A DNA stretch of 64,000 nt from Gemmatimonadaceae bacterium (GTDB lineage: Bacteria; Gemmatimonadota; Gemmatimonadetes; Gemmatimonadales; Gemmatimonadaceae). The position numbers were made by a program, and so were the translations under genes. The stretch covers positions 1 to 64,000 of the forward strand of contig JACDDT010000004.1 in the NCBI GenBank assembly GCA_013816855.1, written 5' to 3'. Below, one piece after another: positions 45,162 to 47,356 of the stretch (the stretch's first letter is position 1; each line of letters begins with the position of its first letter). The notes below the pieces were generated by a model that was given only the letters and a program-made list of their open reading frames with translations, made no database searches and was not told where the DNA came from.

Positions 45162-45232
45162 TCTTACCGCTTCGGGCTGTTCCGCCACAGCGGATGCTGC
45201 GCTGCCGTACGGACGGCCCGATGCGCCGCCGC

Positions 45233-45406
45233 TCACGTCTTCGGGCGTGTTCCGTCCCGGTGTGTGCCGCGCACGACTATGCGGTAGATCAGAAGAAACA
45301 CGCCGAGTGTGAGGAGGACGTGAATCCAGCCCGGCGCGTCTCCGCGAAAGGTGATCACTCCCCAAACTGTCAGCATCAGAACGGCGGAAACGATTCCTAA
45401 ATCCAT
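45233..45406 (-). CDS. Small membrane protein, 57 aa (below ORF-track cutoff)
   Basis: Hand translation: MDLGIVSAVLMLTVWGVITFRGDAPGWIHVLLTLGVFLLIYRIVVRGTHRDGTRPKT*; similar in layout to lmo0937-type small membrane proteins. Confidence 0.6.
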   Translation of the reverse strand: MDLGIVSAVLMLTVWGVITFRGDAPGWIHVLLTLGVFLLIYRIVVRGTHRDGTRPKT

Positions 45407-45417
45407 AGTAATTGTCG

Positions 45418-45446
45418 TTGACGGTAGTTTGCGCGATTCCTAGATT
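45418..45446 (+). promoter_or_regulatory. Candidate sigma-70 promoter
   Basis: TTGACG - 17 bp - TAGATT directly upstream of the structured RNA candidate. Confidence 0.6.
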
Positions 45447-45452
45447 CCAGAG

Positions 45453-45660
45453 AGAAGAAACTGCTACACCGTTGGGACGGAGAGATCATTTTTTGAGCCA
45501 ACAAGTCCTTCGGGTGGGTTCGATAAACTTTGCTGACGTCATGCCCCAGTGCGGGGAAGACGGTAGGTAGGGTGAGGACCTCATACATTCGACCGGGCTT
45601 CAAAAAACCTCTCCGTTCCCTGTTTAGAAGAAGCTCCGCCTCGGCGGAGCTTCTTCGTTT
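45453..45660 (+). ncRNA. Candidate structured RNA: rod-like with long closing stem (6S-like or cis-regulatory leader)
   Basis: GGGACGGAGAG(AUCA)UUUUUUGAGCC (45474-45499) pairs with GGCUUCAAAAAACCUCUCCGUUCCC (45596-45620). Inner stems GUCCUU/GAGGAC, ACUUUGCU/GGUAGGGU and CGUC..CCCC/GGGG..GACG. Promoter upstream, strong hairpin downstream. Confidence 0.6.
45627..45660 (+). terminator. Strong hairpin, terminator/attenuator-like with short U-tract
   Basis: GAAGAAGCTCCGCC-TC-GGCGGAGCTTCTTC, perfect 14-bp arms, then GTTT; 24 bp upstream of the PTPS start. Confidence 0.7.
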
Positions 45661-45679
45661 CCGATATCTTACGCAATAC

Positions 45680-46093
45680 ATGCCCACCGTGACAGTAACC
45701 CGCCGAGTGCGCTTTAACGCCGCCCACAGGGTGCATAACCCGGCGCTGCCCGACGATGAAAACGCCCGCCTCTTCGGAAAGTGCAACAACCCGAACTGGC
45801 ACGGTCATAATTACACGCTCGACGTCTCCGTCGAGGGGCCGATGGATCCGAAGACCGGCTACGTCTTCGACCTCGCCAAGCTAAAAGCGGTTGTGCAGAA
45901 GGAAATCACCGATATCGTCGACCACCGGAACTTCAACCTCGATGTCCCGTTCATGAAGGACGTCATTCCGACGACGGAGAACATCGTCGTCGCTTTTTGG
46001 AAACTACTCGCGCCGAAAGTGGCGCCCGCCGCGCTCAAGCGGCTGGTGTTGTGGGAGACGGAGAACAACTATGTCGAATACGACGGGCGATAA
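45680..46093 (+). CDS. 6-pyruvoyl-tetrahydropterin synthase family, resembling the BH4-type enzyme
   Basis: [78 protein letters not shown]. Confidence 0.9.
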
Positions 46094-46652
46094 AGAGCTC
46101 GAAGAGCTGATTAGGCGGCAGCTCGAGCTGATTGGCGAAGACCCTGCGCGGGAAGGCCTCGTTCGCACGCCCGCGCGCGTCGCTGCCTCTCTCAAGTTTC
46201 TCACGCAGGGCTACGACGGCGATGCGCGCTCGGTCATCGGCGACGCCATTTTCGAGGAAAAGCACGACAACATGATCATGGTGCGCGACATCGAGCTGTA
46301 CTCGATGTGCGAGCACCACATGCTTCCGTTTTTCGGCAAGGCGCACATCGCCTACATCCCGAACGGCAAGATCGTCGGCCTTTCAAAGCTCCCGCGCATC
46401 GTCGATGTCTTCTCGCGCAGGCTCCAGGTGCAGGAGCGGCTCACCGATCAAATTGCCGAGGCGATTTGCTCCGTGTTGAACCCCACGGGATGCGGTGTCG
46501 TGATCGAGGCCCTCCACCTCTGCATGATGATGCGCGGAGTGCAGAAGCAGAACTCGAGGACGATCACTTCCGCGCTGCGCGGCAGCTTCCTCAAGGATCC
46601 CAAGACGCGCGACGAGTTTCTCCGCCTCGCGCATCACAACGGCAATTCGTGA
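46071..46652 (+). CDS. folE: GTP cyclohydrolase I
   Basis: [75 protein letters not shown]. Confidence 0.97.
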
Positions 46653-47356
46653 GCGGGAAGCGGCTGACCGGCTGTAACGTCGTCATCACAGGGGGGTCGC
46701 GCGGAATAGGCGCGGTCACCGCCGGCCGGCTCGTTGCCGAGGGCGCGCGCGTTCTCTCGCTGTCGCGAAAAGCCGGAGAAAAACAGGCCGGCATGGACCA
46801 CGTGCAGTGCGATGTGACAAAAGCGTCGAGCGTCGCCCATGCTGCCGCCAATGTTGTCACGATGTTCGCCGGCGCTCCCGACATCGTCATCAACAACGCG
46901 GGCATCTTCCAGATGGCGTCCGTGGCTGAAACGAAGACCGAGATGTTCGCCGATGTGGTCGGCACGAATCTCTTCGGGCCGTTTCACGTCATAAACGCTT
47001 TTCTTGCGGGAATGCTCAAGCGAGGGAAGGGGCACGTGATAAGTATCGGGTCGATCGCCGACCAGCTCGCCTTCGCCGAGAACGGTGCCTACTCAGCGGC
47101 GAAGTTCGGGGTTCGCGGACTGCATCAGGTTCTGCGCGCAGAGCTCAAAGGCACCGGCGTTCGCTCCACTCTGATCTCGCCGGGCAATGTGGACACCAGC
47201 ATGTGGGACGCGCATCTCGAAAGCGCCGAGGCCGCCGCAAAATTTCCGGCACGCGACGCGATGCTTCGCCCCGATAACATCGCCGACGCCATCTTGTTTG
47301 TGCTCACGCTGCCGCCGTCAGCGAACGTCGACGAGATCCGCATCACGCCCGCCTGA
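46649..47356 (+). CDS. Short-chain dehydrogenase/reductase
   Basis: [41 protein letters not shown] start overlaps folE stop. Confidence 0.88.

Follow-up and report, generated by a model that had tools for sequence, protein, structure and literature searches.

A predicted divergent 6S RNA gene beside pterin-synthesis genes in a Gemmatimonadaceae bacterium

Comparative sequence analysis identifies, with little doubt, a divergent 6S RNA gene (ssrS) of a Gemmatimonadaceae bacterium, the product of which would act in trans. 6S RNA is a known small RNA whose mimicry of an open promoter allows it to block RNA polymerase. The element lies in the window, by which we mean the whole 64,000-nucleotide stretch of DNA that was analysed, and positions 45418–45656 of its + strand hold a complete small-RNA gene with a promoter, a rod-shaped RNA of roughly 200 nt and a terminator hairpin. 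The features of this region are as follows.

45418–45446, + strand: sigma-70-type promoter of the predicted 6S RNA gene, TTGACG-17-TAGATT (sequence scan; recurrence in homologous loci)
45453–45660, + strand: predicted 6S RNA primary transcript, about 205 nt (start from the −10 spacing, end from the terminator)
45474–45484, + strand: closing stem, 5′ strand GGGACGGAGAG (pairs with 45609–45620; covarying helix 1)
45489–45499, + strand: second stem, 5′ strand UUUUUUGAGCC (pairs with 45595–45607; template strand of the predicted product RNA, or pRNA)
45500–45515, + strand: central bubble, 5′ strand AACAAGUCCUUCGGGU (in register with U44 of E. coli ssrS)
45516–45581, + strand: inner stem (GGGUUC/GGACCU) and apical arm (covarying helices 4–8)
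45544–45556, + strand: apical hairpin CCCC-AGUGC-GGGG at the end of the apical arm
45582–45594, + strand: central bubble, 3′ strand (unpaired in the consensus)
45595–45620, + strand: 3′ strands of the second stem (GGGCUUCAAAAAA) and closing stem (CUCUCCGUUCCC) (consensus structure; covariation)
45626–45656, + strand: terminator hairpin (folding; terminator-like element recurring in homologous loci)
45680–46093, + strand: 6-pyruvoyl tetrahydropterin synthase (PTPS; Pfam PF01242, E = 3.4e-34)
46071–46652, + strand: GTP cyclohydrolase I (FolE; Pfam PF01227, E = 1.2e-75; TIGR00063 above cut-off)

The promoter TTGACG-17-TAGATT proposed in a preliminary description of this DNA is located at 45418–45446, and 56 of 84 homologous loci have a similar promoter upstream, compared with 4 of 84 shuffled flanks. 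A terminator-like element likewise occurs just 3′ of the RNA in 56/84 homologous loci, versus 2/84 shuffled flanks. The hairpin at 45626–45656, which had been called terminator-like, is perfect and recurs in relatives, many of which have a T run 3′ of it; the window copy, unlike these, lacks a strong T run at this place (TTCGTTTCC, in which the consensus scan counts none). As described, the hairpin sits just before PTPS, at a distance of 23 bp from its start codon at 45680 rather than the 24 bp originally given. Together with the near-universal occurrence described below, these elements indicate that the RNA is an independent transcription unit, as 6S RNA is, and that it is conserved like a housekeeping gene.

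The interrupted closing stem, nested inner stems and hairpin that had been discerned by reading are all present. The paired ends are GGGACGGAGAG/CUCUCCGUUCCC (45474–45484 with 45609–45620) and UUUUUUGAGCC/GGGCUUCAAAAAA (45489–45499 with 45595–45607). Folding, which had been proposed as a check, gives −92.2 kcal/mol for 45440–45680, which is more stable than shuffled sequences (−71.8 ± 4.8 kcal/mol; z = −4.3) and unmatched by any of 200 shuffles. Covariation had been named as the point on which the structure might fail, yet the stems do covary and persist in relatives: in alignment A4 (57 sequences over several orders), a fresh RNAalifold run predicts 40 pairs, 35 of them with a double compensatory change. 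When the model structure is counted on A4, 37 of 42 pairs are changed on both sides (shuffled mean 27.0; 0/500 shuffles as high), and the covariation score is 0.558, compared with 0.208 for shuffled alignments and no more than 0.107 when the partners are slid. Because alignments A3 and A4 had been fitted to the model, their pair counts lean toward the structure. The MAFFT alignment A1 of 30 homologs, which was not fitted to the model, agrees more weakly, with double changes at 18 of its 42 consensus pairs. All 10 pairs of the closing stem show changes on both sides in A4, where 96.6% of cells are paired in this stem and 97.2% in the second stem. The best-conserved parts of the RNA are the 6S-type borders of the bubble. 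In the model, the RNA is a rod with a closing stem, a central bubble and an apical stem-loop, which is the shape of 6S RNA, and its predicted transcript length of about 205 nt is close to the 180–200 nt typical of 6S RNA.

The RNA is a near-universal gene of its phylum. Relatives identified by way of folE are MAGs of Gemmatimonadaceae and Gemmatimonadetes, which places the window in a Gemmatimonadaceae genome. Among 61 relatives, 41 gave a match to the element in a DNA search. A covariance model built from A1 (R1; Gemmatimonadaceae and close relatives) detects it in 160/163 genomes of the order that are at least 90% complete and, at a loose cut-off, in 278 of the 297 phylum genomes, nearly always as one copy in both sets. 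The broader model built from A4 (R2; Gemmatimonadota sequences only) detects it at E ≤ 0.001 in 284 of 295 phylum genomes at least 90% complete, mostly as a single copy. A plasmid search for the RNA gave no match. Two copies per genome were observed in G152 (C2:105978–106141 and C30:51022–51191) and in several genomes of family f6 (G186, G255, G280, G309, G322, G325, G333 and G339). These pairs are possibly paralogs resembling 6S-1 and 6S-2, with contamination as an alternative for some.

Rfam at its gathering threshold yields no match anywhere in the 64-kb window. Under a relaxed threshold, the 6S family (RF00013) scores 17.8 bits over positions 45458–45637, which falls below the gathering threshold of 46.4. 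We read this missed threshold as a limit of the model cut-off caused by divergence, not as a biological feature, because R1 also matches, at identical coordinates, the homologs that do pass RF00013. Specifically, two class-level relatives lie above the threshold, one (L193) with 56.6 bits for RF00013 and 62.0 bits for R1, the other (L194) with 53.3 and 42.2 bits, and in each case both models match at the same coordinates; a relative from another class (L195) scores 42.3 and 34.4 bits. The earlier expectation that a strong 6S match would mark a known RNA holds for L193 and L194 and fails for the window copy. Across the phylum, RF00013 matches occur in 35/297 genomes, about 30 of them at the place found by R1 (about 28 checked by coordinates), and the best match to a family-level homolog has a whole-genome E value of 1.9e-6. 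In a scan of 20 homologous loci with all 4227 Rfam families, 6S alone recurs among the families found on the RNA itself, matching in eight loci and each time exactly on this RNA.

The relationship is also detected from the opposite direction. In the E. coli locus, the best match of R2 is ssrS (491–655 of the annotated 484–666; 25 bits, E = 8.8e-4 in 52 kb). The alignment pairs UGAGCCGAU with UUGAGCCAAC in register at the pRNA template, and the 5′ strand of the second stem, UUUUUUGAGCC, is aligned in register with CCCCUGAGCC of ssrS. R1 gave no match on E. coli ssrS at E up to 10, R2 gave nothing above noise on the proteobacterial-type 6S of locus L031, and no second 6S match was found elsewhere in the window's genome. 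By these covariance-model comparisons, homology to established 6S RNAs is detectable, both through RF00013 in about 30 genomes and through R2 on ssrS. The 6S-like reading in the preliminary description is thereby borne out and raised to homology, with reciprocal model matches, a common central bubble and a common pRNA template.

Several other matches were set aside. The strong 6S match in G016, a Gemmatimonadaceae genome (contig C266:2218–2411, which is L031; 62.5 bits), is probably a contaminant, because G016 has its own homolog on contig C376 and R1 finds no match on L031; C266 is a short contig. The matches of istR (Rfam E = 0.044) and BSnc120 (E = 0.094) on the window reflect mainly the terminator hairpin, which is of a generic kind, and neither family turns up again in the homologs. 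Matches to a microRNA and to Hsp83 in one homologous locus (L021) fall in a low-complexity repeat outside the RNA.

On the basis of established 6S biology, we infer that the RNA is transcribed, binds RNA polymerase and serves as a template for pRNA synthesis. The central bubble would mimic an open promoter and bind the holoenzyme of RNA polymerase with its housekeeping sigma factor, which would be held by the 6S RNA during stalled growth. On the return of nucleotides, the polymerase would initiate opposite C45502 and make a short pRNA, predicted as 5′-GUUGGCUCAAAAAA and beginning 5′-GUUGGCUC, the synthesis of which would refold the 6S RNA and free the polymerase. In the R2 alignment, C45502 coincides with U44 of E. 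coli ssrS, which we take from earlier work to be the start of its pRNA. The measured pRNA of B. subtilis 6S-1 is 5′-GUUCGGUCAAAACUA (PMC12005410). The ssrS register at UGAGCC and the likeness to the B. subtilis pRNA both place the predicted template strand on the 5′ side of the bubble, as in 6S RNA.

Genes for pterin synthesis frequently follow the RNA. Of 48 order-level loci, 44 have PTPS and/or folE on the same strand downstream of the RNA, as do 23 of 30 class-level loci within 1.5 kb. In three loci (L123, L173 and L125), a 1.2-kb membrane-protein gene on the opposite strand stands between the RNA and PTPS, and three further loci (L130, L131 and L192) have neither PTPS nor folE within the stretch examined. 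From its sequence, the intervening gene of L123 (2243–3475, − strand) and L173 (2239–3465, − strand) reads like a sodium/calcium exchanger; the arrangement occurs in some families of the order.

Other observations concern the immediate surroundings of the RNA. A small membrane protein of 57 aa (MDLGIVSAVLMLTVWGV...; about 45232–45405, − strand), with no NCBIfam match, is encoded divergently from it. The PTPS start has no obvious ribosome-binding site, and several relatives of the genus share the sequence GATATCTTAC, which lies within 45663–45680 and about 9 nt upstream of the start codon. This sequence could serve as a −10 element for a PTPS mRNA that has no leader, although a good −35 element is lacking upstream. 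Directly after folE lies a short-chain dehydrogenase gene (46649–47356, + strand), which could complete a tetrahydrobiopterin pathway with PTPS and FolE as a sepiapterin-reductase-like step.

The gene order raises the possibility, which we consider plausible without favouring it, that some 6S transcripts read through the terminator into PTPS–folE and also feed these genes, an addition to the main explanation rather than a replacement for it. The order is class-wide, and there is a precedent in E. coli, where the folate gene fau/ygfA (5-formyl-THF cyclo-ligase) is the gene after ssrS and is reported to be co-transcribed with 6S RNA, the significance of which is unexplained or only speculated upon (PMC2848244); adjacency of 6S RNA and ygfA is seen in several other groups (PMC9130861). 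Read-through is harder to reconcile with the terminator-like element that follows the RNA in 56/84 loci and with the opposite-strand gene that parts RNA and PTPS in some lineages, and plain inheritance accounts for the gene order too. No counterpart of E. coli fau was found near the Gemmatimonadota loci. The class-wide 6S–PTPS–folE neighbourhood is an intriguing echo of the 6S–ygfA linkage in Proteobacteria and may have a functional meaning. That the 6S unit is functionally tied to folate and pterin (and hence GTP and purine) metabolism, for example by regulated read-through, with the G-initiated pRNA sensing the GTP consumed by FolE, is a speculative and rather improbable extension.

Less probable still is the proposal in the preliminary description that the RNA is a cis-acting leader (a riboswitch or attenuator) of the PTPS–folE operon, with the 45626–45656 hairpin as its switching terminator. 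The hairpin does sit just upstream of PTPS in the window, and the co-directional genes downstream (44/48 and 23/30 loci) fit such a role. Because an opposite-strand gene intervenes in some lineages and PTPS and folE are absent near the RNA in others, an obligatory leader role is excluded for the RNA, since such a leader would always be contiguous and co-directional with its genes; this form of the proposal was rejected on gene order. The RNA also retains its own conserved promoter and terminator, is a near-universal and single-copy gene of the phylum, and is best conserved at the borders of a 6S-type bubble. Folding of 45440–45680 predicts no alternative pairing of the RNA core with the hairpin. 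No riboswitch family matches 45380–45720 at E up to 10 and none exceeds threshold in the window, so that of the families proposed for an Rfam search, 6S is found below threshold, and THF, preQ1 and other riboswitches are not matched. We consider it similarly improbable that the RNA belongs to another class (an Ms1-like RNA that binds core polymerase, or a new family) and is 6S-like by rod shape alone. The window copy is indeed far under the Rfam threshold, and its 6S function is predicted from comparison, but homologs exceed that threshold, the match on ssrS is reciprocal and in register, and 6S is the only recurring Rfam signal.

Recognition of this RNA as 6S RNA would supply the missing 6S RNA of a phylum widespread in soil and water and remove its apparent lack of a global transcription regulator. 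Only 2 of the 297 sampled phylum genomes yield it at the Rfam threshold (one probable contaminant set aside), whereas R2 detects it in about 96%, and the alignments offer a basis for an improved 6S model. An independent lineage would also be added to those in which 6S RNA adjoins a folate or pterin gene. A literature search found no paper joining 6S RNA with Gemmatimonadetes or Gemmatimonas; the surveys Barrick 2005 and Wehner 2014 were not covered by it, so an earlier prediction is possible.

Among known RNAs, E. coli ssrS (RF00013) shares with the window RNA a rod composed of closing stem, second stem, central bubble and apical arm, a template UGAGCC beside the bubble with the pRNA start aligned by R2 at the third nucleotide after CC (U44 and C45502), and a folate or pterin gene downstream. 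The window RNA differs in having diverged below the Rfam threshold (17.8 bits), in its core of about 147 nt (compared with 183 nt for the whole E. coli RNA), in a predicted pRNA that starts with G rather than A, and in its neighbour, which is PTPS–folE in place of ygfA. For B. subtilis 6S-1, compared by its published pRNA only, the predicted GUUGGCUCAAAAAA resembles the measured GUUCGGUCAAAACUA, including the G start (PMC12005410). Ms1 RNA of Actinobacteria likewise forms a rod resembling 6S RNA and interacts with RNA polymerase (PMC9130861, PMC11077062), but its partner is the core enzyme without the primary sigma factor; among Rfam families, 6S alone recurs on the RNA described here.
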